Positions 3,392-41,742 of a stretch of 64,000 nucleotides of DNA are shown one piece after another (positions within the stretch are counted from its first letter, which is position 1; every line of letters begins with the position of its first letter). The position numbers were made by a program, and so were the translations under genes. Source of the DNA: Faunimonas pinastri. GTDB lineage: Bacteria; Pseudomonadota; Alphaproteobacteria; Rhizobiales; Afifellaceae. Location: contig NZ_FOFG01000003.1 in assembly GCF_900110915.1 (NCBI RefSeq), forward strand, positions 1 through 64,000, in the 5' to 3' direction. The notes below the pieces were generated by a model. The model had not been told where the DNA came from. It saw nothing but the letters and a program-made list of their open reading frames with translations, and did no database searches.

Positions 3392-3481
3392 CGGGGCACG
3401 CAAACCAGGCGCTGGACAGCGCATACCCCGCCGGTATCGGTCACATCGGCGCTCCCAAAGCCGCCGTTTGTGGATGCCACC

Positions 3482-13567: not shown

Positions 13568-13612
13568 CCCTGTCTCTTCCCCTCATCGTCCAGCCGCCCC
13601 GAAGGAATGAAC

Positions 13613-19988: not shown

Positions 19989-20789
19989 TCAGGGTGAAGG
20001 GTCGGGCTTGCGGTGAGGCAGACACGCCTGCACCACAAGGATGGCGATGGTGACGACGAGCATCAGCGTGGCGACGGCCGCCAGCGCGGGATCGACGGAA
20101 TCGGCGATGCTGGTCCAGATCCGACGCGGCAGGGTCACCATCGCGCGGCTGGTGATGAACAGCGTGACCGTGATCTCGTCCCAGGAGGTCACGAAGGCGA
20201 ACAGCGCGCTGGCGATGATGCCGGGCAGGATGTTGGGCGCGATGACGCGCAGGAACACCGTCGCGGGACGGGCGCCGAGGCTGCGGGCTGCCTGCACGAG
20301 GCGCGGATCGAGGTTGGAGAGGGTCGATCCCATCGCCAGAATGACGAAGGGCAGGCACAGCACGACGTGCACGACCGCGACGCCGAGGAAGGTGTCCAGC
20401 AGATGGAAACGCGCCCACAGCTTGAAGATGCCGACGGCATAGACGATGGGCGGTACGATCAACGGCGACAGGATCATCACGCGGGTGAGCGAGGGCCACC
20501 AGCCGGAAATCGACCATGCGCCCACGGCATAGGCGGCCCCGAGCGTGGTGGCGGCCGCGCTGGCGAGGACGCCGACGGCGATGCTGGTGAGGATGCTGGG
20601 CAGCCAGCCGGCGCTCCAGTCGCCGATGGCGACGAAGTGCTTCAGCGACAGTCCGTGCTGCGGCAGCGACAGGAAATCCTGGTCGGTGAAAGCCACCGGG
20701 ATAACCACGAGGATCGGCAGGAAGAGAAAGGCCAGCAGCAGCCAGGTAAGGCCGCGCGAGAGATAATGGCCGGCTGATCCGCGCTTCAC
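19989..20789 (-). CDS. Spermidine/putrescine-type ABC transporter permease, PotC type
   Basis: A 266-residue permease with about six membrane segments and the EAA-type loop RLVQAARSLGARPATVFLRV. The GTG at 20789 is chosen because it overlaps the stop of the PotB-type gene as GTGA, which suggests translational coupling; much longer in-frame extensions run through the PotB gene and are not credible. It pairs with the adjacent PotB-type protein. Confidence 0.91.
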   Translation of the reverse strand: MKRGSAGHYLSRGLTWLLLAFLFLPILVVIPVAFTDQDFLSLPQHGLSLKHFVAIGDWSAGWLPSILTSIAVGVLASAAATTLGAAYAVGAWSISGWWPSLTRVMILSPLIVPPIVYAVGIFKLWARFHLLDTFLGVAVVHVVLCLPFVILAMGSTLSNLDPRLVQAARSLGARPATVFLRVIAPNILPGIIASALFAFVTSWDEITVTLFITSRAMVTLPRRIWTSIADSVDPALAAVATLMLVVTIAILVVQACLPHRKPDPSP

Positions 20790-21625
20790 GGGTCCGGCCT
20801 CCCCTCGAAGGCCGCCCGGAGCGCGGGCCGCCGCATCAGTGCGAGAACGGACAGGGCGACGAGCAGCAGCAGCAAGACCGAGAGCGCCGTCGCCACGCCC
20901 CAGCGAAGCGTCTTCATCTGCACGGAGATGAATTCGGCGATCATCACCGTGCGGCCCGCCCCAAGCAGTGCCGGAGTGATCAGGAAGCCCAGCGAATAGA
21001 TGAAGACGAAGACGGAGGCGACGGCGAGGCCCGGCACGCTCAGGGGCAGCCAGATGCGCCAGAAAATCGTCGCGGGCCGGGCCCCCAGCGACCGGGCAGC
21101 CTGCATGATGCGCCGGTCGATGCCGGAAAGGTTGGCGAAGATCAGCAACACCGCGAAAGGCAGCATGTAGTGGACCATGCCGATGACCACGCCGATCCGG
21201 TTGTAGACGAGGTTCAGCGGCTCGGAGATCAGCCCGAGGCTCGACAGCGCGGAATTCAGGACGCCTTCCCGGCGCAGGATCGTGATCCACGAAAAGGCGC
21301 GGACCAGCACGGACACCCAGAAGGGAACCAGCACGAGAAACATGGCGAGCCGGCGCGGGCCGACGCGCATATGCACCAGCCCGAAGGCAATGGCATAGGC
21401 GCCCGCGATCGTGAAGATCGTCGTCAGCAGCGAAACGTTCAGCGTCGTCGCCGCGACCTTGGCGACGGCGTTGCTGGTCATCAGACCTTCGTAATTGCCG
21501 AGGCCCGGACGCGGGTCGGTCACGCTCAGCGTCAGCACCTGCGTGATCGGGGCGACATAGAGCGCCAGCGTCGTCAGGACGGCGGGGAGGGTGAGGGCGA
21601 AGGCCCAGCGGTTGAAAGTTGTCAT
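20786..21625 (-). CDS. Spermidine/putrescine-type ABC transporter permease, PotB type
   Basis: A 279-residue permease starting MTTFNRWAFALTLPAVLTTL. The EAA-type loop is RRIMQAARSLGARPATIFWR, nearly identical in its core to the partner permease, as usual for PotB/PotC pairs. The in-frame extension upstream to 21757 is arginine- and threonine-rich and overlaps the intergenic space, so it was rejected. It lies 43 bases after the binding-protein gene. Confidence 0.91.
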   Translation of the reverse strand: MTTFNRWAFALTLPAVLTTLALYVAPITQVLTLSVTDPRPGLGNYEGLMTSNAVAKVAATTLNVSLLTTIFTIAGAYAIAFGLVHMRVGPRRLAMFLVLVPFWVSVLVRAFSWITILRREGVLNSALSSLGLISEPLNLVYNRIGVVIGMVHYMLPFAVLLIFANLSGIDRRIMQAARSLGARPATIFWRIWLPLSVPGLAVASVFVFIYSLGFLITPALLGAGRTVMIAEFISVQMKTLRWGVATALSVLLLLLVALSVLALMRRPALRAAFEGRPDP

Positions 21626-21668
21626 GGCTCTTCGCGGCCGCCGGCGAACCGGGCGACCGCGCGCTCCT

Positions 21669-22772
21669 TCAGGAGATGAAGTCGAGGTAGCGGTTCTGCA
21701 GGTCGGCCTCGTTCTCCGCGTAATAGGCCGGGTCCACCTTGAACTGCGTGGTCGCATTCTCCGGGGTGGAGGGGCTTATCTTGCGGTCTTCCGCCGTCAG
21801 CATCTCCAGCGCCTTGGGATTTGTCGGTCCGTTGCCCATCAGCCGGAGCAGCGTGATCTGGCCTTCAGGATCGAGGCTGGAATTGATGAAGTCGAACACC
21901 TTGGCGCCCGCCGGATTGTTCTTCGGCACCGACCACGCGCTGACGAAAAGCAGGTTCTGCGCCCAGGTCCAGGTCAGCCGCTCCTGCGTTTCCTTGCGCA
22001 GCAGGCTGGCGCGGGTGTGCCAGATATTGCCCATCACCACTTCGCCGTCGCGGAAGAGTTGCTGACTCTGCGCGCCCGCGTCCCAGAAAATCAGGTTCGG
22101 CAAAAGCGGCTTCAGTTTCTTGAAGGCACGATCCACGTCCAGCGGATAGATCTTTTCGGGCGGCACGCCGTCCGCGAGAAGGACGGCCTCCAGCTGGCCC
22201 TGCACCCACTTGCACATGGTGCGCTTGCCCGGGAACTTCTCCGTGTCGAAGAAATCGGCCCAACCCGCCGGTGCGACGCCCTTGGTCTTGGCGGAATCGT
22301 AAGTCAGCACGTTGGAGAACACGTAGTTGCCGATGCCGAATTCTGCCGACATGCCCGGCCCGACCTTGGTCCTGTCGACGATCTTGTAGTCGATCGGCTG
22401 GACATAGCCGCCCTTGCTGAGCGTCACGGCGTCCGTCATGCCGCCATCGGTGGCGTCCCAGGTCACCGCGTTGGCTTCCACCATGGCGCGGATGGCGGAG
22501 GTCGAAGGCCCGGCGCCGTCCACGGTGACCTTGGTGCCGCTCTTCCTGGTGAAGGGCTCGCCGAAGGCCTTCTGGAAAGCGTCGACCGCCGCTCCGCCCC
22601 AATTGCAGAGAACGATTTCGGAGGCCTCCGCGAAACCGACGCTCGGCTTCAGCGCTACGGCGAGGCCGAGCCCGCCGAGCGCCAGGAGCAGCGAACGCCG
22701 GTCGATCTCGCCGCTGCGGAATTTCTCCAGCGCGATCGAGGCGGCATCCTGCGAAAACTTCGACTGCGACAT
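21669..22772 (-). CDS. Spermidine/putrescine-type solute-binding protein
   Basis: A 367-residue extracytoplasmic binding protein. The N-terminus (MSQSKFSQDAASIALEKF) is followed by a twin-arginine-type signal DRRSLLLALGGLGLAVALK. Mature landmarks include VLCNWGGAAVDAFQKAFGEP and GWADFFDTEKFPGKR, as in PotD/AfuA-type proteins. It is the second gene of the operon, 47 bases after the LacI gene. The ligand may be a polyamine or a guanidino compound, considering the deiminase-family neighbour. Confidence 0.92.
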   Translation of the reverse strand: MSQSKFSQDAASIALEKFRSGEIDRRSLLLALGGLGLAVALKPSVGFAEASEIVLCNWGGAAVDAFQKAFGEPFTRKSGTKVTVDGAGPSTSAIRAMVEANAVTWDATDGGMTDAVTLSKGGYVQPIDYKIVDRTKVGPGMSAEFGIGNYVFSNVLTYDSAKTKGVAPAGWADFFDTEKFPGKRTMCKWVQGQLEAVLLADGVPPEKIYPLDVDRAFKKLKPLLPNLIFWDAGAQSQQLFRDGEVVMGNIWHTRASLLRKETQERLTWTWAQNLLFVSAWSVPKNNPAGAKVFDFINSSLDPEGQITLLRLMGNGPTNPKALEMLTAEDRKISPSTPENATTQFKVDPAYYAENEADLQNRYLDFIS

Positions 22773-22819
22773 GTCGGTACCTCTGCGAATGGTTGGAAGG
22801 CCGGTGTGACGTCCCCTCG

Positions 22820-23884
22820 TCACCCCGTCTGGCTGGGGTCGCCTTGTCGGCGTTTGCTGTTGTCCTGGGATGATGAGCGCGGTGGGGCGCTGACGGAGCC
22901 GCGTTCGATCAGCTTCACGGGGATGGAGTGTCTTTCGCCGGAACCGCTCCGGCCGTGGATGAGGTCCACCAGCAGGCGGGCGCTCACGCGGCCGAATTCG
23001 TCGGCTGACTGGTGAACGGTGGTGAGCGGCGGATTCAGGAGATGTGCGTAGGGAATGTCGTCGAAGCTGACGACGGAGAGATCGTCGGGAATGGTGACGC
23101 CCATCTCGCGCGCGGCCGAGATCACCCCGACGGCCAGAAGATCGGCGATGGCGAAGATCGCCGTGGGCGGCTCCGGCATGGACATGAGCTCACGGAAGGC
23201 TTCCGCTCCGGCCTGCTCGGAATAGAAGCCGAAGCGCGTCAGCGCGGCTTCGGTCGGCAGACCCGCTTCCTTCATCGCCATCTCAAAGCCGGCGAGGCGG
23301 CCTTCGGTGCTGACGAGACCGCGTGGCCCGCCGATAAAGGCGATGCGATGGTGGCCGGTCGCGATGAGGTGGCGGGTCGCCAGCGCACCGCCCGTCTCGT
23401 TGTCGGCGAAGACGCGGGGCACATCGGCGCCACTCACGTCCTCGTCGGCCAGCACGACAAAGCGCGCCTTGCGGACGGCCTCGCCGAGTTGCCCGTCATC
23501 GACATGGTTGGTCATCAGGATCGCACCATCGACCTGATGGTCGGTGATCCGGGATAGCAGGGAGAGTTCGCGTGAGATCTCGTTGCGGCTGTTGAAGATC
23601 AGCAGGCTGTAACCGAGCGCCGCCGCCTCGGCTTCCGCCGCGGAGGCAACGGCAGCGAAGAAGGGATAGGCGATATCGGAGGTGATGAAGGCGAGCGTCT
23701 CGCTGGATCCACGGCTGAGCCGCCGGGCGATCACGTTGGGCTGGTAACCCAGGCGCTGGACCGCGTCGTCGATCCGGCGAGCCGTCTCGTCGGGAAGCGC
23801 GATCTGCCGGTTGAGATGACGCGACACGGCTGCCACCGAAAGACCGGCAGCTTTGGCGACGTCCCTGATTGTTGGCGATCTCAC
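22820..23884 (-). CDS. LacI-family transcriptional regulator
   Basis: A 354-residue repressor. The helix-turn-helix is TIRDVAKAAGLSVAAVSRHL, followed by the hinge LGYQPNVIARRLSRG and a periplasmic-binding-type effector domain ending near SFDDIPYAHLLNPPLTTVHQ. The start is taken as the GTG at 23884, which has AGAGGG about 8 bases upstream; a TTG at 23908 is less likely. It is the first gene of a seven-gene minus-strand operon (regulator, binding protein, two permeases, deiminase family, ATPase, M24) and probably autoregulates through the repeat at 23911-23935. Confidence 0.93.
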   Translation of the reverse strand: MRSPTIRDVAKAAGLSVAAVSRHLNRQIALPDETARRIDDAVQRLGYQPNVIARRLSRGSSETLAFITSDIAYPFFAAVASAAEAEAAALGYSLLIFNSRNEISRELSLLSRITDHQVDGAILMTNHVDDGQLGEAVRKARFVVLADEDVSGADVPRVFADNETGGALATRHLIATGHHRIAFIGGPRGLVSTEGRLAGFEMAMKEAGLPTEAALTRFGFYSEQAGAEAFRELMSMPEPPTAIFAIADLLAVGVISAAREMGVTIPDDLSVVSFDDIPYAHLLNPPLTTVHQSADEFGRVSARLLVDLIHGRSGSGERHSIPVKLIERGSVSAPPRSSSQDNSKRRQGDPSQTG

Positions 23885-23910
23885 GTGCAATTCCCTCTCG
23901 GCGAACAAAG

Positions 23911-29266: not shown

Positions 29267-30337
29267 TCAGACCAGCTTCGTCAGCAGCCGTTCGCGCACG
29301 CGGGAGGGGGGCGCTTCGAACCAGCGCACGCAGGCGCGGCTGAAAGCGCTGGGCTCGGAGTAGCCGAGGATGTCCGCGATATCGCGAAGCGGCATGTGTG
29401 CCTGCCGGAGGTAGAGTTCGGCCAGGTCCCGGCGTGTCCGCTCCACAAGATCGGAAAAGATCTGGTCGTGGTCGGCGAGCCGTCGCTGCAGGGTCCAGCG
29501 CGTCATCTGCAGCGCTTCGGCCACGTTCTCGATATGGGGATAGCCCAGCGGAAGCTGCCCACGGATCTCGCCCACCACCTGATCGGTCAGGCCGAGGGTT
29601 CCCGTGCTGCCCGTCAGCACCGTGAGCGCCTCGCAGAGATCCCGCATGCGGGCGGCATTCCAGCCCGGCATGGGTTTCTGCAGGTCCCGATCGGAGAAGA
29701 CCAGGGCGTTCGTCGGCATGTTGAAATAAACGGGCGCGTTGAAGACGCCCTGATGAGCCTGGAAGTTCTCCGGCCGGGGATGCTCGAAATGAACCTCGTC
29801 GGGGGCCCAGTCGACGCCGAGGCAGCGCCGCACGACGTTGAGGTACATGCCCATCGTGAGTTCGGCATCCTGACGCCGTTGCATGATCCGCCCGTCGAGA
29901 ATGCGGCATTCGAGTTGCCAGAGACTTCCGGTCTTCCTGAACGCGGCCTGGGTATTCTGCTGGTGATAGGGAAAATAGCGCGCCAGGTTTTCCAGCGACG
30001 CGCCCAGCGTGGGCGAGGCGAGTGCGATCTCGCCGATCAGGCCCAGCCGTTCCGGCAGGAAGCCCTGTCCGAAGTGCAGGCCGAAATTGTCGTTGCGGGT
30101 GTGGTGGGCCGCTGCCTCGATCAGAGCGCAATAGCTGCGGAGCTCAAGACTTTCGCGTGGCGCCCTGACGGACCGCTCCTCGATGCCCACGGTGCGCAGC
30201 ACCGTGTCGGGGTCGGCACCGTTTTCCAGGATGAAGTCCGCGATGCCATTGGCTGCGGACGACAGGATCTTGCCGTTGCTCAAGGCCGCCTGCCGCGTCG
30301 GCCGGCAGGCATCGAGGTTCGAGCGCTGCATGCTCAT
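29267..30337 (-). CDS. AraC-family regulator with arabinose-binding-type N-terminal domain (OruR/ArgR-like)
   Basis: A 356-residue regulator starting MSMQRSNLDACRP. The N-terminal two thirds match the sensor type found in OruR-like AraC proteins (FGLHFGQGFLPERLGLIGE, YFPYHQQNTQAAF). The C-terminal double helix-turn-helix includes IENVAEALQMTRWTLQRRL and LRDIADILGYSEPSAFSRAC. It is divergent from the LuxR/binding-protein fusion at 30565 and precedes the two SDR genes, so it may control either side. Confidence 0.9.
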   Translation of the reverse strand: MSMQRSNLDACRPTRQAALSNGKILSSAANGIADFILENGADPDTVLRTVGIEERSVRAPRESLELRSYCALIEAAAHHTRNDNFGLHFGQGFLPERLGLIGEIALASPTLGASLENLARYFPYHQQNTQAAFRKTGSLWQLECRILDGRIMQRRQDAELTMGMYLNVVRRCLGVDWAPDEVHFEHPRPENFQAHQGVFNAPVYFNMPTNALVFSDRDLQKPMPGWNAARMRDLCEALTVLTGSTGTLGLTDQVVGEIRGQLPLGYPHIENVAEALQMTRWTLQRRLADHDQIFSDLVERTRRDLAELYLRQAHMPLRDIADILGYSEPSAFSRACVRWFEAPPSRVRERLLTKLV

Positions 30338-30564
30338 GTGGTTCCCCTCATCTTCGTCCCGGCGGTGTCGACCATTGCTGTCGATCAGGCGCGGGATGGC
30401 GATGCCGGGAGGGTCGGGGAAGGGATCGCTTGGCGAAATACGTAAACTGACCGATCCTCTGAACACGAGAAAAACCGGCATGCTTCTTGCTGACGTGGAA
30501 GCGGTTCAGGCCAGCTTCTGGTTCGTCGGTGGAGGCTCAGGAAATCCGGGCTCTGAGGGATGAT
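30338..30564. promoter_or_regulatory. Divergent promoter region, AraC gene / LuxR-fusion gene
   Basis: The 227 bases between the two regulator starts hold at least one rightward promoter. The ribosome-binding site GAGGG at 30555-30559 lies six bases before the ATG at 30565 and decides that start over an in-frame TTG at 30487. No strong symmetric operator stands out. Confidence 0.4.
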
Positions 30565-32355
30565 ATGGGGCGGATGGAAACGGCAACCCTCAGGAAAAGC
30601 GCCGCGCCCGGTGTGGCGCCGCCGGTTGTCTGGCGCGCGGCGATCACCGAAGAAGGAACCGTGGAACAGACGGAAGCCCGCGACGCCGTGGCGTTTCTGG
30701 ATGCCCATCCCGATCTCGTCGATTTCGCCGTAGCGCTCCTGACCAGCGGACGCGAACTCGTCCGCTTCATCTGGATCGATGGCGATCGGGCGTGGTTCTC
30801 GGTGCGCATGGACGTGGATTACCGGGCCGACGACCGGCCGCGCGTGCTGATGGCCGCCGGCCGCATTGCCCCACCCTTCGGGCTGACGATCCGCGAACTC
30901 GACGTGCTGACCCTGATGTCGGGCGGGCTGGGCAACCAGGAGATCGCCGCCTGCCTGGAGGCAAGCTTCCGCACCGTCACCACTCATATCGAGCGTATCC
31001 TGCTGAAGCTCGATCAGCCGAGCCGCACCGGTGCGGCGACGCTCGCGACCGATCTCGGGCTGCTTCGCCTCCCGACGCCCGGAGGCGGGCGCAACCTGAT
31101 GCCTTTGACGGCGGGTCTGGTCGATCGCAAGGCCGTTTCGCCGGGGCAGGGCTCCAGGGCGCTCGCGCCCGCGCTGCAACGACGGCCGATCATGATCGGC
31201 ACGCCGCTTTCCTTGAATGGCCTCGCTTCGGCAGACGCGACCGAGATGCTGAACGGCACGCGGCTCGCCGTGGACGAGATCAATCGCCGGGGTGGCATCG
31301 CGGGTCGCAAGCTGGAACTCAGGATCGTCGACTGCGATTGCAGCGACGACCAGGCCGTGCTGGGCGCGATCCGCTCGCTTATCGATTGCGAGGTGGATGC
31401 GATCACGTCGGGCTATACCTGCTCGGAAGAGCAGGTGCAGGACCTGCTGGCGGATTACGGAGCGCCGTACCTGCATTGCGCGACCATGGAAGCGATGGTG
31501 GACCGCGTGCGGCAGGATCGGCACCGGCTTCGCAACGTCTTCCAGCTTTGTCCGAGCGATATTCACTACGGTCCGCGCTTCATCCAGTTCCTGACGGAGC
31601 TGGAGAGAAGCCGGCAATGGCAGCCCTCCAGCCGGCGCGTCACCGTGATCCAGCCGCGCTGGTCGCGCATGAATATCGGGTTCCGGGATCTTGAGAGATT
31701 TGCCTCAAGGACCGGCTGGAAGCTGGATCTCATCGACGATCTGCCGCTTCGCTCCATCGACTGGACCGCGGTGATGGACAAGATCCACGGTTCCGGCTCC
31801 GCCGCCGTGTTCCTGGCGTACTACTTCCCGGAAGAGAACATCGCCTTCCTGCAGGAATTCCTGCGCAACCCGGCCAATGCGCTGGTCTACACGCTCTACG
31901 GGCCTTCCATTCCGGCCTATCGCCAGCAATTGGGGGAGGACGCGGACGGTGTCCTGTGGGCGACGACCACCGGACTTTACCAGGATCATCTGGCCCGCGG
32001 CTTTGCCGAGCGTTACGAGCGAATGCATGGTGTGAAGCCTGGCCATTCCCACGCCGGCCTCGCCTATGACCGGGTCAACATCCTCGCCACCGCCTGGACC
32101 CGGACCGACAATCCGAGGGCGTTCGACCGGGTGGTTCCCGAAATCCGCTCCGTTATCCATCGCGGCGTGAACGGCGCCTATTCGCTCGACAATCCCGGGC
32201 AGGTCGCGCAGTCTTTCCCGGACACCTCCATGGATCCCTCGATCAGCCAGGCCCACCTGATTTTCCAGATCCAGAACGGAAGGCAGAAGATCCTGTCACC
32301 GTCGCCTTACGGGGAATGCGCGTTCCAGCCGCCGCCCTGGCTGAACCGGCATTAG
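30565..32355 (+). CDS. Fusion regulator: LuxR-type HTH joined to a LivK/AmiC-like periplasmic-binding fold
   Basis: A 596-residue protein with an uncharacterised N-terminal part (residues 1-100). A LuxR-type helix-turn-helix follows at about 105-165 (LTIRELDVLTLMSGGLGNQE, TVTTHIERILLKL). From about 209 comes a complete type-I periplasmic-binding domain of the amide/urea/branched-chain amino acid class (IMIGTPLSLNGLASADATEM, AVDEINRRGGIAGRKLEL, HSHAGLAYDRVNILA). There is no signal peptide, so the binding fold is probably cytoplasmic and acts as the sensor, as AmiC does for AmiR but in one chain. It sits 98 bases upstream of eutB, suggesting it senses ethanolamine or a related amide and activates the operon. 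Family assignments are firm; the role is inferred. Confidence 0.82.
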   Translation: MGRMETATLRKSAAPGVAPPVVWRAAITEEGTVEQTEARDAVAFLDAHPDLVDFAVALLTSGRELVRFIWIDGDRAWFSVRMDVDYRADDRPRVLMAAGRIAPPFGLTIRELDVLTLMSGGLGNQEIAACLEASFRTVTTHIERILLKLDQPSRTGAATLATDLGLLRLPTPGGGRNLMPLTAGLVDRKAVSPGQGSRALAPALQRRPIMIGTPLSLNGLASADATEMLNGTRLAVDEINRRGGIAGRKLELRIVDCDCSDDQAVLGAIRSLIDCEVDAITSGYTCSEEQVQDLLADYGAPYLHCATMEAMVDRVRQDRHRLRNVFQLCPSDIHYGPRFIQFLTELERSRQWQPSSRRVTVIQPRWSRMNIGFRDLERFASRTGWKLDLIDDLPLRSIDWTAVMDKIHGSGSAAVFLAYYFPEENIAFLQEFLRNPANALVYTLYGPSIPAYRQQLGEDADGVLWATTTGLYQDHLARGFAERYERMHGVKPGHSHAGLAYDRVNILATAWTRTDNPRAFDRVVPEIRSVIHRGVNGAYSLDNPGQVAQSFPDTSMDPSISQAHLIFQIQNGRQKILSPSPYGECAFQPPPWLNRH

Positions 32356-32453: not shown

Positions 32454-33863
32454 ATGAGCATCTACCAGACCATCGCGGGGAACCAGCGCTACCGGTTCGA
32501 CGGCCTGAAGGCGCTGCTCGCGGCAGCCTCGCCCGCCCGATCCGGGGACGAACTCGCGGGACTTGCAGCCGAGAGCGCCGCACACCGCATCGCGGCCCGC
32601 TATGCGCTGGCCGATGTTCCGCTGACCGACTTCCTTTCCGCGACCTTCGTTCCTTACGAGGAGGACGAGGTCACGCGCCTGATCGTCGACGGCCACGATC
32701 CGGCTGCGTTCGCGCCGCTGTCCTCCATGACCGTCGGCCAGTTTCGCGACTGGCTGCTCGATCCCCGGACGCAGACGGCGGAACTCGCCGCCGTGGAGCG
32801 GGGCCTGACGCCGGAGATGGTGGCCGCCGTCTCCAAGCTGATGCGCAACCAGGACCTCATCGCCGTGGCGCGGAAGCGGCAGGTGGTCACGGCCTTCCGC
32901 AACACGGTCGGCCTGCCCGGCCGGCTGTCGACGCGCCTGCAGCCGAACCACCCGAGCGACGATCTCCGGGGCATCGGCGTGGCCACGGTGGACGGTCTCC
33001 TTTATGGCGCGGGGGACGCCGTGATCGGCATCAATCCGGCGTCCGACAACGTGCCGAACTGCCAGGCCGTACTGCAAATGCTGGATGAACTGCGCCAGCG
33101 CTACGAGATCCCCACGCAGACCTGCGTCCTCACCCATGTCTCCAACGCGATCGAGCTGATCGGGCGGGGCGCGCCGACCGACCTGGTGTTCCAGTCCATC
33201 GCCGGGACGGAGGCGGCGAACAGCGGCTTCGGCATCGATCTCGCCCTGTTGCAGGAGGGCTACGAGGCGGCCCTGTCGCTGGGGCGCGGAACGGTGGGCA
33301 GCAACGTCATGTATTTCGAGACGGGGCAGGGGGCCGCGCTCTCCGCCGGGGCGCACCACGGCATCGACCAGCAGACGGTCGAAGTGCGGGCCTATGCGGT
33401 CGCCCGGCAGTACAAGCCGCTGCTGGTCAACACGGTCGTCGGCTTCATCGGCCCGGAATATCTCTATGACGGCAAGCAGATCATCCGCGCCGGGCTGGAG
33501 GATCATTTCTGCGGCAAGCTCATGGGCCTGCCGATGGGCTGCGACGTCTGCTACACCAACCACGCCGAAGCCGATCAGGACGACATGGACCTCCTGATGA
33601 CGGCGCTGACGGTCGCCGGCGTCACTTTCATCATCACCGTTCCCGGTGCGGACGATGTCATGCTCAGCTACCAGAGCACGTCCTTCCACGACGCGCTCTA
33701 TCTCCGCTCCACCTTCGACCTGAGGCCCGCGCCGGAATTCGAGCAATGGCTGGACGGGATGGAGATGCTGGACGGGAAAGGCCGCCTGCGCGACACGCTC
33801 GCCTCCGGTCGGCCCATGCAACGGCTGATCGGCGGCATGCAGGCGGTAACCGATGGCCGGTGA
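32454..33863 (+). CDS. eutB: Ethanolamine ammonia-lyase, large subunit
   Basis: A 469-residue protein, slightly longer than the enterobacterial subunit. It forms the catalytic TIM barrel of the adenosylcobalamin-dependent enzyme converting ethanolamine to acetaldehyde and ammonia. Conserved stretches include LMRNQDLIAVARKRQVVTAF, GINPASDNVPNCQAVLQMLD, FQSIAGTEAANSGFGID and MGCDVCYTNHAEADQDDMD. The ATG at 32454 follows GGGAAGG. It overlaps eutC by 11 bases. No shell protein, EutA reactivase or aldehyde dehydrogenase gene follows, so this is a compartment-free version of the pathway. Confidence 0.96.
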   Translation: MSIYQTIAGNQRYRFDGLKALLAAASPARSGDELAGLAAESAAHRIAARYALADVPLTDFLSATFVPYEEDEVTRLIVDGHDPAAFAPLSSMTVGQFRDWLLDPRTQTAELAAVERGLTPEMVAAVSKLMRNQDLIAVARKRQVVTAFRNTVGLPGRLSTRLQPNHPSDDLRGIGVATVDGLLYGAGDAVIGINPASDNVPNCQAVLQMLDELRQRYEIPTQTCVLTHVSNAIELIGRGAPTDLVFQSIAGTEAANSGFGIDLALLQEGYEAALSLGRGTVGSNVMYFETGQGAALSAGAHHGIDQQTVEVRAYAVARQYKPLLVNTVVGFIGPEYLYDGKQIIRAGLEDHFCGKLMGLPMGCDVCYTNHAEADQDDMDLLMTALTVAGVTFIITVPGADDVMLSYQSTSFHDALYLRSTFDLRPAPEFEQWLDGMEMLDGKGRLRDTLASGRPMQRLIGGMQAVTDGR

Positions 33864-34611
33864 CCTCGATCCCTGGAACCGGCTTCGGCGCCTGACCCCG
33901 TCGCGGGTCGGTCTCGGACGGGTGGGCGACGCGCCGGGGCTGAAGGATGTGCTGGCCTTCCAGTTCGCCCACGCGCAGGCGCGCGACGCCGTCCACATGC
34001 CGCTCGACGCGCCGGCGATTGCGGCGCAGTTGCCGCTGGCTTCGGTGTTTGTCGCCAGTGCCGCGCCCGATCGCGGCACCTTCCTGCGTCGCCCGGATCT
34101 CGGCCGGCAACTCGACCCTGCATCGGCCGCGCGGCTGCCGCCCGGACCTTGCGATCTCGTCTTCGTCATCGCCGACGGCCTTTCCGCGCGGGCGGTGCAG
34201 GATCGGGCGGCTGCCTTCGTGCAGGTCGCCCTTCCGCGCCTGAAAGGCTGGTCGGTCGGACCGGTGGTGATCGCCTCGCAGGCGCGAGTGGCGCTCGGCG
34301 ACGAGATCGGCGAGCGCATGGGCGCGGGCATGAGCATCATGCTGATCGGCGAGCGGCCGGGGCTCAGTGTCGCCGACAGCCTCGGCATCTACCTGACCTA
34401 TGCGCCGACGCGGGGGCGGCGCGACGCCGACCGCAACTGCATCTCCAACGTCCACGCGTCGGGGCTGAGCTACGAGCAGGCGGCCGACAAGCTGGCGTGG
34501 CTGATCTCGGAAGCCATGGCACGGAAGCTTTCCGGCGTTCGCCTCAAGGACGACGTCGACCCGGCAACGGTCGCTGCCGCGCGCGAAGGGGCGGCGCTGT
34601 CGCGTTCATAG
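33853..34611 (+). CDS. eutC: Ethanolamine ammonia-lyase, small subunit
   Basis: A 252-residue small subunit that completes the cobalamin-binding site with EutB. Recognisable family segments are TPSRVGLGRVGDAPGLKDVL, FVIADGLSARAVQ, IGERPGLSVADSLGIYLTY and RNCISNVHASGLSYEQAA. It overlaps eutB by 11 bases, indicating coupled translation in equal amounts. The operon continues after a 155-base gap with an ABC importer. Confidence 0.95.
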   Translation: MAGDLDPWNRLRRLTPSRVGLGRVGDAPGLKDVLAFQFAHAQARDAVHMPLDAPAIAAQLPLASVFVASAAPDRGTFLRRPDLGRQLDPASAARLPPGPCDLVFVIADGLSARAVQDRAAAFVQVALPRLKGWSVGPVVIASQARVALGDEIGERMGAGMSIMLIGERPGLSVADSLGIYLTYAPTRGRRDADRNCISNVHASGLSYEQAADKLAWLISEAMARKLSGVRLKDDVDPATVAAAREGAALSRS

Positions 34612-34639: not shown

Positions 34640-34689
34640 ATGCACATACGCGTGCATGGGCATTTTGTGTTCAAGTGATAAACCGGTTT
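34640..34689. promoter_or_regulatory. Candidate operators between eutC and the importer genes
   Basis: Two symmetric elements lie in the 155-base gap. One is an inverted repeat with arms ATGCAC and GTGCAT (34640-34657). The other is AAACCGGTTT (34680-34689), a LacI-type operator core that matches the half of the repeat upstream of the LacI gene at 22820. An additional promoter for the importer with LacI-family control is possible. Confidence 0.45.
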
Positions 34690-34766
34690 TCGGAAAAGGC
34701 TCGATACTGGCCCCCAATCCAGACCGCGTCCGTCATCGGTCGCCTGGAGCGTTTTGGAGGGGACCC

Positions 34767-35837
34767 ATGACGACCAAGCTGAACAGATTTCGCCTCGGCC
34801 TGCTTTCCACTGCGGCCGTCGCGCTCACCACCGCTTTCCTGGCGGCCGCGGGCGCGGTGGCGCCGGCCCATGCCGAAGACGCCTGCACCCCGCACAAGAT
34901 CGATCTCGGCGAAGGCAAGTCGATGATGGGCGGCTGCGGCAAGCTGCATATCGCGCTGCTGATGGCCGCCACCAACAACACGCACCTGCAGTCCGCGATC
35001 AAGGGCGCCAAGGATGCCGCCGCGAAGATCGGCGCCACACTGGACGTCTTCGATCCCAACTGGAGCGCGACCACCCAGTACAACCAGGCGCAGAACGTCA
35101 TCACGAGCGGCAAGTACAATGCCATCGTGGGCGAGATGAACGACGGCAACCAGGCCTGCAAGATCCTGACGGAGACGGCGCCCGCGCACAACGTGCTGGT
35201 GGCCGTGGCCAACGAGCCGATCTGCGACCGCGCCGCCGAAGAGGGCGAGAAGCTCTGGGCGCCCGGCACGCTGAACTTCGTCGGCGGATCGCAGGGCCGC
35301 GGTCCTTTCCGCGACTGGATCATGCATATCGCCAAGGAAAATCCCGGCCCGCAGAAGGTCGCTGTGGTGACCGGGCCGGACCTCAATGCCAACACGATCA
35401 ACACAGATCTGGCGCTGAAGGACGTGAAGGCCAAGTTCCCGGACTTCGACGTGGTGGCGGTCGTGCGCACCGACTACACCGTGGTGCAGGGCAATTCCAA
35501 GACGCTGCCGCTCTTCCAGGCGCATCCGGACCTGACGGTCCTGATCTCCAATTATTCCGACATGACGCGCGGAGCGGTACAGGCCGCCAAACAGGCCGGC
35601 GTCCTCAACAACGGCAAGCTCAAGATCTACGACAGCGGCGGCAACATCTGGTCGTTCCAGGCCGTGAAGGCGGGGCAGATCGTCAGCACGCGCACGCTGC
35701 TGCCCTACACGGAGATGTACGAGTCCGTGATCCAGCTCGGCGATGCCTGGGCCGGCAAGCCGGTGCCGCACACGACGCCGCTCGAGGTGAACGACATCAC
35801 CAAGGACACGGTCGACAAGTTCAAGCCGCAGTACTGA
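34767..35837 (+). CDS. Ribose-type (RbsB) ABC transporter substrate-binding protein
   Basis: A 356-residue periplasmic binding protein starting MTTKLNRFRLGLLSTAAVAL, with a long signal peptide probably cut after AHA. It has the type-I fold of the RbsB class (LHIALLMAATNNTHLQSAIK, NLNANTINTDLALKDVKAKF-like segment, KIYDSGGNIWSFQAVKAGQI). An extra cysteine-containing N-terminal stretch (DACTPHKIDLGEGKSM) precedes the fold. GGAGGGG lies five bases before the ATG. Its position after eutBC suggests uptake of ethanolamine, an N-acylated or glycerol-linked ethanolamine, or another amine; not a sugar by context. Confidence 0.9.
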   Translation: MTTKLNRFRLGLLSTAAVALTTAFLAAAGAVAPAHAEDACTPHKIDLGEGKSMMGGCGKLHIALLMAATNNTHLQSAIKGAKDAAAKIGATLDVFDPNWSATTQYNQAQNVITSGKYNAIVGEMNDGNQACKILTETAPAHNVLVAVANEPICDRAAEEGEKLWAPGTLNFVGGSQGRGPFRDWIMHIAKENPGPQKVAVVTGPDLNANTINTDLALKDVKAKFPDFDVVAVVRTDYTVVQGNSKTLPLFQAHPDLTVLISNYSDMTRGAVQAAKQAGVLNNGKLKIYDSGGNIWSFQAVKAGQIVSTRTLLPYTEMYESVIQLGDAWAGKPVPHTTPLEVNDITKDTVDKFKPQY

Positions 35838-35867: not shown

Positions 35868-37424
35868 ATGCAATCCACGGCCTCGGTCCTGCCCGCAACG
35901 GCGCCTGAACCGGATCGTCTGGCTCTCCAGGCGACCGGGGTCGAGATGCGCTACAGCGGGACGTTGGCGCTCAAGGGCGTCGATGTGCAGGCGGAAAAGG
36001 GCACCATCCACGCCCTTGTCGGCGAGAATGGCGCCGGCAAGTCCACCTTCCTCGGCATCATCGCCGGGCGTGTCGTGCCCACGCGCGGCACGGTGCGGAT
36101 CTTCGACCAGCCGCACGTCTTCGGCGTGCCCCGGCAGGCGCGGCGCCTCGGCATCGCGACGATCTACCAGGAACTGACCATCGTTCCCGCCCTGTCGGCG
36201 CAGGCGAACGTCTTCCTCGGCCAGGTGAAATCGCACTCCGGCCTGCTGGACGAGCGGGCCATGCGCCGGCGCTTCGAAGAGCTCGCCGCCGAGATGTCGG
36301 TCTCCATCCGTCCCGACGCGATCGCCGGCCGCCTCTCGGTGGCCGACCAGCAGATGCTGGAGATCATGCGCGGCATCCAGTCCGGCGCGAAGCTCCTGCT
36401 TTTTGACGAACCGACGACCTCATTGGCACCTCCCGAGCGAGAGGCGCTGTTCCGCCTGATGCGGCAGCTGCGCGGCGAAGGCACGACCATGATGTTCGTC
36501 AGCCACAATCTGGAGGAGGTCCTCGACCTTTCCGATGTGGTCACCGTCTTCCGCGACGGCAATCTTTCCGGCTCCGCGCCGCGCTCGGAGTGGACGAAGC
36601 CCGCTTTGATCCGCGCCATGGTCGGGCACGACGTGGTGGAGAACCGCCGGGTGGAACGGGCGCCGCGCAAGCCCGGCGCGGCACCGCTCCTGATGGCGAC
36701 CGGGGTGACGGTCCCCGGCGCCATCGAGAACGTCGACATCACGGTCAATCCCGGCGAGATCGTCGGCATCGGCGGTCTCGTGGGCTCCGGACGCACGTCG
36801 CTGCTTCGCGCCCTCGCGGGACTGGAGCCGCGCAGCACCGGAACGCTTTCCATCAATGGCGAAGCGGCCAAGTGGCCGGAAACACCCCGCGAAGCGTTGA
36901 AGAGCGGCATCGTGCTCGTTCCGGAAGACAGGAAGGCGCAGGGCCTCGTCCTCGGCATGAGCGCGATGGACAATATCGCCATCGGCCGCTTCGACGCGGT
37001 TTCGCGCTTCGGCGTGATCTCCAATTCCAAGATGAACCAGAAGTCGCGCGCGGTGGCCCGCGAGTTCGGCTTCGCCGAGAACCGCGTCGGCACGATCGTC
37101 CGCAACCTGTCGGGCGGCAACCAGCAGAAGGTGATGCTCGGCAAGGCGCGCTTCCGCGGTCCCAGGATCCTGCTCGTCGACGAGCCGACCCGCGGCATCG
37201 ATATCGGCGCCAAGGACGAGATCATGACGACGCTTCGGCGCCTGGCGGACGATGGCCTCGGCATCATCGTCGTGTCGTCCGATCTGGAGGAAGTCATCGC
37301 CGCGAGCGACCGCATCCTGGTGATGGCCGAGGGCCAAAAGGTCGCCGAGCTCGATCAGGCAACCCAGCCGGCGAAGGTTCAGGACATCCTGAATGCCGCC
37401 TTCAAGGTCATGACCCATGAGTAA
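35868..37424 (+). CDS. Ribose-type (RbsA) ABC transporter ATPase, tandem domains
   Basis: A 518-residue duplicated ATPase. Domain 1 has Walker A LVGENGAGKSTFLGI, the signature LSVADQQMLEIMRGI and Walker B LLLFDEPTTSLA. Domain 2 has the RbsA-type altered Walker A GGLVGSGRTSLLRAL without lysine, the signature LSGGNQQKVMLGKAR and Walker B ILLVDEPTRGID. It overlaps the permease gene by eight bases. It energises import with the proteins at 34767 and 37417. Confidence 0.94.
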   Translation: MQSTASVLPATAPEPDRLALQATGVEMRYSGTLALKGVDVQAEKGTIHALVGENGAGKSTFLGIIAGRVVPTRGTVRIFDQPHVFGVPRQARRLGIATIYQELTIVPALSAQANVFLGQVKSHSGLLDERAMRRRFEELAAEMSVSIRPDAIAGRLSVADQQMLEIMRGIQSGAKLLLFDEPTTSLAPPEREALFRLMRQLRGEGTTMMFVSHNLEEVLDLSDVVTVFRDGNLSGSAPRSEWTKPALIRAMVGHDVVENRRVERAPRKPGAAPLLMATGVTVPGAIENVDITVNPGEIVGIGGLVGSGRTSLLRALAGLEPRSTGTLSINGEAAKWPETPREALKSGIVLVPEDRKAQGLVLGMSAMDNIAIGRFDAVSRFGVISNSKMNQKSRAVAREFGFAENRVGTIVRNLSGGNQQKVMLGKARFRGPRILLVDEPTRGIDIGAKDEIMTTLRRLADDGLGIIVVSSDLEEVIAASDRILVMAEGQKVAELDQATQPAKVQDILNAAFKVMTHE

Positions 37425-38397
37425 TGTTCCCATCTCGTCTGCCGCCAAGCCGGCATCCAGGCCGCTCTTCACGCGGGACATCTTCCTGCAGTTCGGCGTG
37501 GTCTGGGCCTTCGTGCTGCTGCTCGTGGCCAGCGCGATCCTCTATCCGCGCGTCTTCGACCCCAACAACGTCAAGAACATCCTGAGCCAATCGGCGCCTG
37601 TGGGCATCGTCGCGGTCGGCATGACCTTCGTCATGATCGGCGGCGGGTTCGACCTGTCCGTCGGTGCTATCTTCGCGCTGGGCGCCGTGGTCTTCGCGCA
37701 TCTTGCCGATCCGCTCGGCCTCTGGGGCGCGGCGGGAGCTGTCGTCGTGGCCAGCACGATCTGCGGCGTCATCAACGGGCTGATCGTGACCAAGCTCCGG
37801 GTCAACCCATTCGTGGCGACGCTGGGCACGGGCTCCGCCTTCGGCGGATACGCCTTCATCTATTCCGACGCAGCCCCGCAGGTGCCGAACGACTTCAGCT
37901 TCCAGTATCTCGGCACGGAGGCATGGTTCGGCTGGCCGATCTCGATCTATATCCTGATCGCCGTCTTCCTGATCGGCGCCTTCGTGCTGGCCCGCTGCAC
38001 CTATGGCCGGTCGATCTATGCCACTGGCGGCAATACGGAGGCGGCGCGCCTGTCCGGCATCCCCGTCGATGTGCTGCGCGCCAGCACCTATGTCATGACC
38101 GCGCTCTGCTCCGGTATCGGCGGCATGATCCTGTCCTCCCGGCTTGGCGTCGGGCAGGCCGACATGGGCGGCAGCATCGCGCTGGATTCCATCGCGATCG
38201 TGGTGATCGGCGGCACCTCGCTGCTCGGCGGCGAAGGCACGATGTGGCGCACGGCCATCGGTCTCCTGATCATCGCCACGCTCACCAACGTCTTCGACAG
38301 CCTGGCGATCAACAACAATTACCAGCTCGTCGCCAAGGGCGTCATCGTGATCGGCGCCGTGGCGCTCGACATCTACGCGCGGCGCATTCGCACCTGA
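37417..38397 (+). CDS. Ribose-type (RbsC) ABC transporter permease
   Basis: A 326-residue membrane protein with about ten hydrophobic segments. The RbsC hallmarks are VGMTFVMIGGGFDLSVGAIF, the STYGRSIYATGGNTEAARLS-like cytoplasmic loop (CTYGRSIYATGGNTEAA) and GTSLLGGEGTMWRTAIGLL. The ATG at 37417 overlaps the ATPase stop. It forms the channel of the importer in the ethanolamine cluster. Confidence 0.93.
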   Translation: MSNVPISSAAKPASRPLFTRDIFLQFGVVWAFVLLLVASAILYPRVFDPNNVKNILSQSAPVGIVAVGMTFVMIGGGFDLSVGAIFALGAVVFAHLADPLGLWGAAGAVVVASTICGVINGLIVTKLRVNPFVATLGTGSAFGGYAFIYSDAAPQVPNDFSFQYLGTEAWFGWPISIYILIAVFLIGAFVLARCTYGRSIYATGGNTEAARLSGIPVDVLRASTYVMTALCSGIGGMILSSRLGVGQADMGGSIALDSIAIVVIGGTSLLGGEGTMWRTAIGLLIIATLTNVFDSLAINNNYQLVAKGVIVIGAVALDIYARRIRT

Positions 38398-38431: not shown

Positions 38432-39316
38432 ATGACTGCAGCCAAGGACGTGGGCGTCGCGCTCACCTTTGACTACGACGCCTATTCGCTGTGGATCGGC
38501 ACGTTCGGAGCCAAGTCGCCCAGCATGCTGTCGCGCGGCGAGTTCGGTCCGACCGGCGTGCGCCGCATCCTGTCCACGCTCGAGCACTACAAGATTCCCG
38601 GGACCTTCTACATTCCCGGCCACACCGCCTACGCCTTTCCGAAGACGGTGCAGGACATCGCCGCCGCCGGCCATGAGATCGGCCATCACGGCTGGATTCA
38701 CGAAAACCCGGTGACCGTCTCGGCCGACCGCGAGCGCTGGATCCTGGAGAAGGGCTTCAAGGCGCTCGACGAGGTCGCGGGCGTCCGCCCGGTCGGCTAC
38801 CGTTCGCCCGCCTGGGACAACAGCCCCGACAGCATTCCGCTCCTGCTGGAATACGGTTTCGAATACGAGAGCAGCATGATGGGCTCCGATTTCCAGCCTT
38901 ATTGGTGCCGCCTCGGCGACGAGTTCACCATGGACGATCCCTACAGGTTCGGCACGCCGGTCGATCTCGTGGAGATGCCCGTGGCCTGGCACCTCGATGA
39001 CTTCCCGCAATTCGAGTACGTCGTGGGCAAGACCAGCACGATCCAGGGCGTGATGACGCCCCGCAACCTCTTGCAGATGTGGATCGACGAGTTCGACTAC
39101 CTCTACGACCGGATCGGCACGGGGCTCTTCAGCGCCACGATGCATCCGCAGGTTATCGGTCGCGCCCATCGCATGCTGCTGCTGGAGCAGTTCATCGAGC
39201 ACGTGAAGGACAAACCGGGCGTCAGCTTCACCACGATGCAGGACTATTGCCGCAAGTGGCGCGAGGGCAAGACGCCGTCGCTGCCGGCGGAAGCGGCCGG
39301 AGCGTTCGGCCAGTAG
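38432..39316 (+). CDS. Polysaccharide deacetylase (NodB-homology) family protein, PuuE-like
   Basis: A 294-residue NodB-fold enzyme. Metal and catalytic motifs are visible: LTFDYDAYS, AAGHEIGHHGWIHENP and GYRSPAWDNSPDS. The lack of a signal peptide and the overall pattern resemble the allantoinase/PuuE and imidase branch, which cleaves C-N bonds in small cytoplasmic compounds rather than cell-wall polymers. GGAG lies seven bases before the ATG. It lies 34 bases after the permease gene and precedes the penicillin-acylase-family gene, so a small amide or imide substrate is likely. Confidence 0.87.
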   Translation: MTAAKDVGVALTFDYDAYSLWIGTFGAKSPSMLSRGEFGPTGVRRILSTLEHYKIPGTFYIPGHTAYAFPKTVQDIAAAGHEIGHHGWIHENPVTVSADRERWILEKGFKALDEVAGVRPVGYRSPAWDNSPDSIPLLLEYGFEYESSMMGSDFQPYWCRLGDEFTMDDPYRFGTPVDLVEMPVAWHLDDFPQFEYVVGKTSTIQGVMTPRNLLQMWIDEFDYLYDRIGTGLFSATMHPQVIGRAHRMLLLEQFIEHVKDKPGVSFTTMQDYCRKWREGKTPSLPAEAAGAFGQ

Positions 39317-39402
39317 CATGCCGGGCTTGCCGCCAAGGGCAACGCGGCAGGCTCGTTGGACGGACTGGATGCCTGGCCCGCAGGGTCGGGGCGGAGAGAA
39401 CG

Positions 39403-41742
39403 ATGCGCGTTGAAGAGATCGATGTAGCCGGATTGTCGGCACCGGCGGAAATCACGGTCGACCGCTGGGGCATCCCGCATCTGAAGGCGGACAACCTCCT
39501 CGATCTCTTTTTCCTGCAAGGCTACAACGCCGCCCGCGACCGCCTCTGGCAGATCGATCTCTGGCGCAAGCGCGGGCTCGGTCTGCTCGCGGCCGATTTC
39601 GGTCCCGGCTATCTCGCCCAGGACCGCGCTTCCCGCCTCTTCCTCTATCGCGGCGACATGGATGCGGAATGGGCGGCGTACAGCGACGACGCCCGCGATA
39701 TCTGCACGTCCTTCGCGGCGGGCATCAACGCCTTCATCGACAGTGTGACGGAAGACGCGTTGCCGCCGGAATTCCGGCTGATGGGCACCCGTCCCGCCAA
39801 ATGGCAGCCGGAAGACGTGGTGCGGATCCGCAGCCATTCCATGATGCGCAACGCCCTGTCGGAAGTGATTCGCGCCAACGTGATCAGCGCCGCCGGGCCC
39901 GAGATCGATCTGCTCCGGCAGCATCTCGATCCCGCCCGCGACCCGCATCGGCCGGACGGCGTGAACCTCGCCGAAATTCCGCTCGCCGTGCTCGATGTCT
40001 TCAAGCTCGCGCTGGCGGCCGTCACCTTCGAGGACGAGCGCCTCGCGGCCCCTCTCCACGAGGCGGGCCGCTGGACCAGGGTGGCGGCGACGGGCGACGT
40101 GGTGCGCGACGCCAATGCGCAGGGCTCCAACAACTGGGTCGTGCACGGCAGCCGCACGGATACGGGCCGGCCGATCATGGCCAACGATCCGCACCGGCTG
40201 CATGCGGTGCCTTCTTTGCGTTATCTCGTGCATCTCACGGCGCCCGGTTTCGATGCGATCGGGGCGGGCGAGCCCTGTCTTCCCGGCATCTGCATCGGCC
40301 ATAACGGCACGGCCGCCTTCGGGCTCACTCTCTTCTTCGGCCCGGACCAGGAGGACGTCTACGTCTACGAGACCTCGCCGGAGGATCCTCATCTCTACCG
40401 CTACGGCGAAGGCTGGGAAGCCATGCGCGTGGAAACGGAGACGGCGCCCGTCAAGGGAGCGGCGGATCAGGCGCACACGCTCAAGTTCACCCGGCACGGG
40501 CCGGTCGCTTTCGAGGATCGCGAGCGGCACCGCGCCTATGCGATCCGCTCCGTCTGGGCGGAACCCGGCACCGCCCCTTACTTCGCCAGCATCGTCACGA
40601 TGCGCGCCCGCTCCCTGGACGAGTTCCGCGCCGGCATGACGAAATGGGGCGTGCCGGCGACCAACCAGGTCTACGCCGACACGAGCGGGACGATCGGCTG
40701 GCTCGCTGCCGGCTTCAGCCCTGTCCGTCCGAACTGGGACGGCCTGCTGCCGGTGTTCGGCGACGGTCGCTACGAATGGGACGGCTTCTACCGGGCGGGG
40801 GATCTCCCGGAGGTCGCGAACCCCGAAGCGGGCTTCTTCGCCACGGCCAACGAGCCGAACCTTCCCGCAGACTGGCCGCACGAAGAGAAGCAGATCGGCT
40901 ATGAGTGGCTCGAACGGTCACGCATGAACCGCATCACCGAAGTCTTCGCGCAGGGCGGCACGCACACGGTGGCCAGTTCGTGCGCGCTGCAGACCGATGT
41001 GCTTTCCATTCCGGCCCGGCGTCTGGCCGTCCTGGTGCGAAAGCTGCCGGGTTCCGCCGTGGTGGATCGCGTTCGCCGGATCTTCGAGGGTTGGGATTTC
41101 CGCATCACGCCGGACAGCGCCGCCGCTACGCTCTTCGAGGTCTGGTGGAGCAAGCATCTGCGTACCGGGTTGATGGCCCTCGTGGCTCCCGAACGGGTGC
41201 GGGCGCTGCTGCTGCCGGGAGACCCGGAAAGCGTGCTGAAGCTGCTGGAGAGCCCGGACGCGCGCTTGGGAAAAGCGCCCGAGGAGGCGCGCGACGCTCT
41301 TCTTACCACGAGCCTTGCTGCGGCCTGGGAAGAATGCGTGCAGCTCATGGGCTCGGACCCCGCGCGGTGGCGTTGGGGCGACCTGCATCAGGGCTACTTC
41401 GCCCATGCGCTGAGCGCCACGAGCCGTCCGGCAGGCGATGAGGGTTTCGATGTCGGCCCGTTTGAGAAAGGCGGTACGGATTCCACGCCGATGAACGCGC
41501 TCTACCGCACCAGCGATTTCCGGGTAACCCTTGGCGCTTCCGTCCGGGTGGTCGTCGATGTCGGCGGCTGGGATAACAGTCGCTGCATCAATGCGCCGGG
41601 CCAGTCCGGCGACCCCGCTTCGCCGCATTACGGAAACCTTGCCGCGGCCTGGGCTGAGGGATCCTATGTGCCCCTGCTCTACAGCCCGGAGGCCATCGAT
41701 GAGGCGGCGGAAACCCAGTTCGTGTTGAGGCCTGCGCGATGA
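39403..41742 (+). CDS. Penicillin acylase family (Ntn-hydrolase) amidase without signal peptide
   Basis: A 779-residue precursor of the N-terminal-nucleophile amidase family. The N-terminal chain carries VDRWGIPHLKADN and QGYNAARDRLWQIDLWRKRG. The self-cleavage site is at ANAQGSNNWVVHG, making S242 the likely new N-terminal nucleophile of the beta chain. Further family segments are MANDPHRLHAVPS and DSTPMNALYRTSDF. Most relatives are exported; here the ATG at 39403 (MRVEEIDVAG) gives no signal, so it should work in the cytoplasm on imported amides. Penicillin, acyl-homoserine lactones and N-acyl amines are substrates in the family. Beside eutBC, an N-acylethanolamine is an attractive guess. 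Confidence 0.88.
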   Translation: MRVEEIDVAGLSAPAEITVDRWGIPHLKADNLLDLFFLQGYNAARDRLWQIDLWRKRGLGLLAADFGPGYLAQDRASRLFLYRGDMDAEWAAYSDDARDICTSFAAGINAFIDSVTEDALPPEFRLMGTRPAKWQPEDVVRIRSHSMMRNALSEVIRANVISAAGPEIDLLRQHLDPARDPHRPDGVNLAEIPLAVLDVFKLALAAVTFEDERLAAPLHEAGRWTRVAATGDVVRDANAQGSNNWVVHGSRTDTGRPIMANDPHRLHAVPSLRYLVHLTAPGFDAIGAGEPCLPGICIGHNGTAAFGLTLFFGPDQEDVYVYETSPEDPHLYRYGEGWEAMRVETETAPVKGAADQAHTLKFTRHGPVAFEDRERHRAYAIRSVWAEPGTAPYFASIVTMRARSLDEFRAGMTKWGVPATNQVYADTSGTIGWLAAGFSPVRPNWDGLLPVFGDGRYEWDGFYRAGDLPEVANPEAGFFATANEPNLPADWPHEEKQIGYEWLERSRMNRITEVFAQGGTHTVASSCALQTDVLSIPARRLAVLVRKLPGSAVVDRVRRIFEGWDFRITPDSAAATLFEVWWSKHLRTGLMALVAPERVRALLLPGDPESVLKLLESPDARLGKAPEEARDALLTTSLAAAWEECVQLMGSDPARWRWGDLHQGYFAHALSATSRPAGDEGFDVGPFEKGGTDSTPMNALYRTSDFRVTLGASVRVVVDVGGWDNSRCINAPGQSGDPASPHYGNLAAAWAEGSYVPLLYSPEAIDEAAETQFVLRPAR

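Follow-up and report, generated by a model that had tools for sequence, protein, structure and literature searches.

The window, by which we mean the whole stretch of 64,000 nucleotides analysed, carries an open reading frame that is uninterrupted for 596 residues, has GAGGG 5 nt upstream of its ATG, and encodes a regulator with an internal LuxR-type helix-turn-helix (HTH). Genes for ethanolamine ammonia-lyase, an importer and two hydrolases follow on the same strand, and an AraC-type gene diverges from it. The features are:

29267..30481 (-): divergent AraC-type regulator, QhpR-like (mechanical ORF limits; start probably near 30337; NCBIfam QhpR 293.6 bits, cut-off 250)
30435..30454 (+): conserved non-coding element GAAATACGTAAACTGACCGA, candidate operator/promoter, in the stretch separating the regulator from the divergent AraC-type gene; 4 loci
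30565..32355 (+): one-component regulator, 596 aa, comprising predicted PAS-like domain (about 22-101), GerE HTH (107-161), linker and type-I binding domain (207-594)
30628..30867 (+): predicted PAS-like domain, residues 22-101 (AlphaFold2 secondary structure; Foldseek)
30883..31047 (+): LuxR-type HTH, residues 107-161 (Pfam GerE; NarL/LuxR DNA-binding domains matched in VIA with Z up to 11.7)
31183..32346 (+): type-I periplasmic-binding-like ligand domain, residues 207-594 (Pfam Peripla_BP_6, 208-538; 3h5l_A, Z 47.3 over 385 residues)
32454..33863 (+): eutB, ethanolamine ammonia-lyase large subunit (ORF open from 32316; likely start 32454; Pfam EutB 1.3e-215)
33853..34611 (+): eutC, ethanolamine ammonia-lyase small subunit (Pfam EutC 4.3e-88)
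34656..35837 (+): CUT2-type importer binding protein (Peripla_BP_4; Pfam; relative in 8/29 loci)
34666..34681 (+): conserved non-coding element TGTGTTCAAGTGATAA, candidate operator/promoter, upstream of the importer binding-protein gene; same 4 loci
35868..37424 (+): CUT2-type importer ATPase (Pfam, NCBIfam)
37417..38397 (+): CUT2-type importer permease (Pfam, NCBIfam; relative in 12/29 loci)
38432..39316 (+): CE4 polysaccharide-deacetylase-family hydrolase, HP0310/PuuE type (Pfam PF01522; relative in 24/29 loci)
39391..41742 (+): S45 amidase (Ntn hydrolase), closest solved relative D-succinylase (Pfam Penicil_amidase 2.8e-193; relative in 10/29 loci)

Architecture of the regulator

The earlier note had read this gene as one chain joining a LuxR-type HTH to a LivK/AmiC-like fold, and our analysis confirms that the regulator is one cytoplasmic chain in which such a binding domain follows an internal LuxR-type HTH. 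A Pfam search of residues 1-596 found both GerE (107-161, E 2.8e-12, 46.5 bits, cut-off 23.5) and Peripla_BP_6 (208-538, E 2e-23, 84.1 bits, cut-off 31.7), and both folds are confident in the full-length AlphaFold2 model (mean pLDDT 89.4, pTM 0.73), where residues 1-18 and 194-203 are disordered. The same note's claim that a signal peptide is absent agrees with hydropathy: judged from sequence, the first 40 residues are not signal-like, and the peak 19-residue Kyte-Doolittle mean in the chain is 1.43. The hydrophobic N-terminal stretch of the export signal expected of an ABC-importer binding protein is thus missing, and the HTH precedes the binding domain. NarL and LuxR classes usually carry a receiver or acyl-homoserine-lactone domain at the N-terminus; Pfam matched neither in the window regulator or among the families listed for 27 family members, and it matched no LacI HTH or Peripla_BP_1/3 in the window regulator at E 0.001.

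The internal position of the HTH stands, whereas the N-terminal region that had been called uncharacterised is now probably PAS-like on the evidence of AlphaFold2 and Foldseek. Modelled alone, the N-terminus and HTH reached pLDDT 96.2 and pTM 0.88, and the predicted N-terminal topology, strand-strand-helix-helix-strand-strand-strand, can be read as a minimal PAS fold. Foldseek with the N-terminal 154 residues (N-terminus plus HTH) placed VqmA at the top (E 6.1e-7), with EL222 in fourth and sixth place; these two lead the PAS-HTH proteins. The top VIA rows for this portion were HTH domains alone (Z up to 11.7); VqmA spans both domains (6ide, Z 10.6, rmsd 6.9 over 141 residues) and EL222 was aligned over the HTH only. 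As Pfam matched no PAS domain in the 27 members, the PAS-like identity is probable rather than settled.

The best solved relative of the regulator is 3h5l, over residues 201-594 (E 4.5e-54); other chains match the HTH separately, and among the matches listed for the family profile (60 of 67) no solved chain spans HTH and binding domain. In superpositions on the binding domain 3h5l again scored highest (Z 47.3 over 385 residues), followed by the pyroglutamate-binding SBP 8wch (Z 41.1), LivJ/LivK and aromatic-acid binders (Z about 36-38), urea-binding proteins (Z about 35.5) and AmiC (Z 35.5, rmsd 2.5 over 342 residues, 17% identity). These fold relatives include pyroglutamate-, urea- and amide-binding proteins (8wch, 8tg1, 1pea), but leucine and aromatic-acid binders are among them too, so that the ligand class cannot be read from the fold. 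Between 25 and 27 of the 27 members share residues T307, Y335, Y445, Y472 and D502, a pattern consistent with a working pocket.

Family spread and origin of the fusion

Scanning genome contigs with the first six full-length members as queries returned 26 loci. Of these loci, which lie in named genomes of alpha-proteobacteria and actinobacteria, 25 match the family alignment across both domains and L051 in the HTH only; because one search pattern lies just before the HTH and the other in the binding domain, the locus set is biased to full-length members. L051, the repeats L024 and L025 (of L029 and L030) and the broken Paracoccus copy L015 were left out before counts were made. The resulting alignment, A2, holds 27 proteins, 26 of them from 25 loci (L027 has two) together with the window regulator, and GerE and Peripla_BP_6 were found by Pfam in all 27, partly as a consequence of selection. 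The earlier note had raised the possibility of two genes joined by an indel near 31150-31200. Orthologues cross the linker in one frame (79% identity in genome G059, 76% in Lichenifustis, 70% in Mesorhizobium), which, with the presence of both domains throughout A2, rules out a frameshift or fusion artefact.

Alpha-proteobacterial members include Mesorhizobium, Kaistia, Labrys, Rhizobium and Paracoccus, and actinobacterial ones Pseudonocardia, Microbispora, Nonomuraea, Streptomyces, Microbacterium and Leucobacter. Low match counts mark the family as rare in our genome samples. Among 61 relatives of the window's genome, four match at E 1e-20 or better, with HTH and binding domain covered in the own genome, G059 and G010 and the binding domain only in G047. 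In the order sample, seven of 397 genomes reach E 1e-70, and the match takes in the HTH in four (own, G059, G010 and G156); in the class sample (4/385 at E 1e-60) and the phylum sample (5/398 at E 1e-70) the HTH is included only in the window's own protein. The family also occurs on two plasmids: the Agrobacterium protein aligns from residue 23 on at 42% identity, the Paenarthrobacter protein from residue 102 on at 34%. Both of these full-length relatives bear the annotation 'ABC transporter substrate-binding protein', so that regulators of this kind may escape notice.

A tree built from the binding domains of 30 regulators and 14 transporter-type proteins, with plasmid transporter binding proteins left out, separates all regulators from the rest by a branch supported at 100/99. 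A single origin of the fusion would agree with this topology, which falls short of proof given the small transporter sample and two long-branched rows in it. No NCBIfam model matched the window regulator at E 1e-10, and other members match response-regulator models, at most 7 of 27. Among the matches listed by searches of open-licence PubMed Central papers, none describes this family, whether as a LuxR HTH combined with a binding-protein domain or as such a regulator near the enzymes considered here. The architecture is conserved and apparently unnamed, a binding-protein-fold regulator variant with a LuxR HTH.

Kaistia hirudinis (L027) has two different family regulators (2898-4976 and 12077-14065) flanking one importer/CE4/S45 cluster. 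On a Paracoccus pantotrophus plasmid, L015 4001-5150 is a broken regulator binding domain annotated as three short hypothetical proteins; it adjoins PucR, cupin and FAD oxidoreductase genes, like the Agrobacterium locus L013. Transporter-type binding proteins of the same superfamily, which do not group with the regulators in the tree, adjoin the regulator in L032 (2637-3980), L034 (3290-4681) and L040 (11706-13262), and in these three loci sensor and importer may share a ligand.

Genes accompanying the regulator

Neighbours were compared across 29 loci (25 scan loci, the window, two plasmids and G059) by clustering ORFs and tabulating their distances, with representative clusters identified by Pfam. 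A CE4 hydrolase lies near the regulator in 24 of the 29, and hydantoinase B in seven, including all five without CE4. Linear amidases occur in 20 loci (S45 in 10, nitrilase in 6, C45/AAT in 4); in the other nine none is in reach, in some through contig ends. Hydantoinases and nitrilases cut cyclic or linear amides. Aldehyde dehydrogenase and the QhpR-like AraC gene are each found near the regulator in four loci. Shared ancestry of the loci means that these counts are not independent. For comparison, 20 control stretches of 20 kb were taken along the chromosome of a single genome, G059; they contained none of the six hydrolase groups, whereas CE4 was recovered in 23 of 28 regulator loci using the proteins of other loci only. 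CE4 enzymes of this type (E 1e-40) give 15 matches in 11 of the 61 relatives, among them all three genomes with a full-length regulator. The amide/imide theme common to S45, CE4, hydantoinase and nitrilase neighbours places the ligand, by inference, in that class.

The window's S45 enzyme matches D-succinylase 7eby at 741 bits and glutaryl acylase next, at 172 bits; D-succinylase substrates are N-succinyl derivatives of D-amino acids. Cyclic imide hydrolase, for its part, is known from Pseudomonas putida. Excerpts of a review describe D-succinylase as acting on D-amino acids (PMC11241749). A quorum-sensing (acyl-homoserine lactone) theme was set aside, the match to PvdQ being weak (46.7 bits, cut-off 950) beside the 741 bits of D-succinylase. 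The best solved match of the CE4 hydrolase is HP0310 (3qbu, 212 bits), with PuuE allantoinase at 66 bits, and we therefore did not adopt the name imidase outright. According to excerpts of the HP0310 study, that enzyme showed no activity on allantoin, acetylated sugars, N-acetyl polyamines or dipeptides; its substrate was proposed to be small, and that of PuuE was termed a small cyclic imide (PMC3084791).

The importer had been described in the earlier note as one for amines or amides, but Pfam and NCBIfam place it in the ribose/arabinose (CUT2) sugar type (Peripla_BP_4, AraG/RbsA-like; all below NCBIfam equivalog cut-offs), not the LivK/UrtA type. An importer that looks by sequence to be of sugar type counts against the amide/imide reading, as do the inactivity of HP0310 on the compounds tried and the nine loci with no linear amidase in reach.

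No palindromic LuxR-type operator shared by the whole family was found. Both conserved elements are limited to four close loci, the window, L023, L026 and L048 (the last with 3 mismatches in GAAATACGTAAACTGACCGA and 2 in TGTGTTCAAGTGATAA), and are absent from nine other family loci scanned. A second copy of GAAATACGTAAACTGACCGA, with 3 mismatches, lies at 56381-56400 (-). The AraC gene occurs in the same four loci and in no other of the 29.

Two other regions of the window deserve mention. At 44767-46062 (-) lies a CT_A_B protein related to 5-oxoprolinase/urea amidolyase (TIGR00724, 288 bits, cut-off 230), which adds another enzyme of cyclic-amide type close to the regulator cluster. At 20786-23908 (-) a PotB-like permease, an SBP_bac_8 protein and a LacI-type regulator are encoded; relatives of all three occur in L026 (Mesorhizobium), and of two in L029.

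Proposed mechanism and alternatives

We propose, with a probability of roughly 0.6, that the protein works as a one-component regulator in the cytoplasm, where it would sense an N-acyl or cyclic-imide-type compound and govern both the uptake of that compound and its hydrolysis. From the computed one-chain architecture, its conservation and the gene neighbourhood we infer the ligand class, the dimer mechanism, the DNA sites, the controlled genes and the sign of control. An amide-class compound (an N-acyl amine, most plausibly of N-succinyl type, or the parent cyclic imide) would enter through the CUT2 importer and bind the C-terminal type-I domain. Closure of that domain would rearrange a dimer held by the PAS-like domain and HTH, and the rearrangement would switch transcription of the importer, CE4 hydrolase and S45 amidase downstream. 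EutBC would be an added module in the window, converting ethanolamine released by the amidase to acetaldehyde and ammonia. The amine released may be consumed by different enzymes in different hosts, with EutBC as the window's version; Paenarthrobacter has a copper amine oxidase and an aldehyde dehydrogenase alongside CE4 and nitrilase.

The earlier note had instead suggested direct sensing of ethanolamine or of an N-acylated derivative. A sensor of ethanolamine controlling eutBC would suit the position of eutB, which begins about 98 bp downstream of the regulator on the same strand, and the regulator locus of an actinobacterial MAG (L035), where EutB occurs with importer, CE4 and S45. That locus hints at ethanolamine as a product there also, though two cases carry little weight. 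Among the 29 loci, EutB lies near the regulator only in the window and L035. EutB has one match in the window's genome and none in the regulator-carrying genomes G010, G059 and G156, and orthologues at 76-80% identity occupy the same cluster without eutBC, the order of regulator, importer, CE4 and S45 being kept in G059 and Lichenifustis. We consequently rejected ethanolamine as the family ligand and regard its direct sensing in the window as very unlikely. The other half of the suggestion fares better: because amide hydrolases recur across the family, an N-acylated derivative would fit as ligand better than ethanolamine.

The remaining alternatives concern which domain senses and which protein controls the cluster. 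The region before the HTH is probably PAS-like, an order known from VqmA and EL222, and PAS-HTH pairs regulate without any binding protein, so that the N-terminal domain might be the main sensor, of another small molecule or of redox state, with the binding domain merely modulating it or docking a partner. The N-terminal domain is far less conserved, however, F68 being the only invariant A2 column inside it where the binding domain has many, and we consider this division of labour unlikely. Control of the CUT2 importer and hydrolases might also fall to the QhpR-like AraC protein, leaving the fused regulator a narrower role, on eutBC or on its own gene. In favour, both conserved DNA elements share their four loci with the AraC gene. 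Hydrolases, however, accompany the fused regulator everywhere and the AraC gene is found in only 4 of 29 loci, which makes such an assignment quite unlikely.

It is conceivable, though we lean against it, that one fusion gave rise to a family, present in two phyla, of three-part regulators (PAS-like, LuxR HTH, binding protein) that respond to two cytoplasmic signals and serve only the catabolism of cyclic imides and N-acyl amines (ureide-like). If so, its neighbourhoods reveal overlooked imide/amide pathways, coupled in the window to ethanolamine ammonia-lyase. As CE4 or hydantoinase genes accompany the regulator at every locus, the ligand class is open to experiment, and the association could supply a substrate for HP0310-type enzymes, for which the 2011 study, in the excerpts available, found none (PMC3084791).

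The closest solved relative of the sensor domain, 3h5l (Silicibacter pomeroyi, LivK/HAAT type), is a transporter-type protein without an HTH. In VqmA and EL222, the best Foldseek matches of the N-terminal 154 residues, a PAS/LOV domain is followed by a LuxR HTH, the order predicted for the window regulator, but those chains end after the HTH and the window regulator adds a 390-residue binding domain. LacI/GalR proteins also combine a binding-protein fold and an HTH in one cytoplasmic chain; their HTH is N-terminal and their fold Peripla_BP_1/3, whereas the window regulator has a LuxR HTH and lacks such matches. XylR, AraR and SgrR are further binding-protein-fold regulators with other HTH types. 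Like AmiC/AmiR of Pseudomonas aeruginosa, the regulator uses a cytoplasmic type-I fold as a putative amide-class sensor beside amide hydrolase genes. In that system, however, AmiC forms a protein of its own and holds the RNA-binding antiterminator AmiR, while the window's sensor is joined to a LuxR-type DNA-binding domain. With this two-protein task merged in one chain, the result would be a soluble regulator that a ligand can switch and whose sensor is modular. In G059 a binding-domain relative without an HTH (L011, G059:C1:801492-802724) has no evident signal peptide at its first Met and is possibly an AmiC-like stand-alone receptor.
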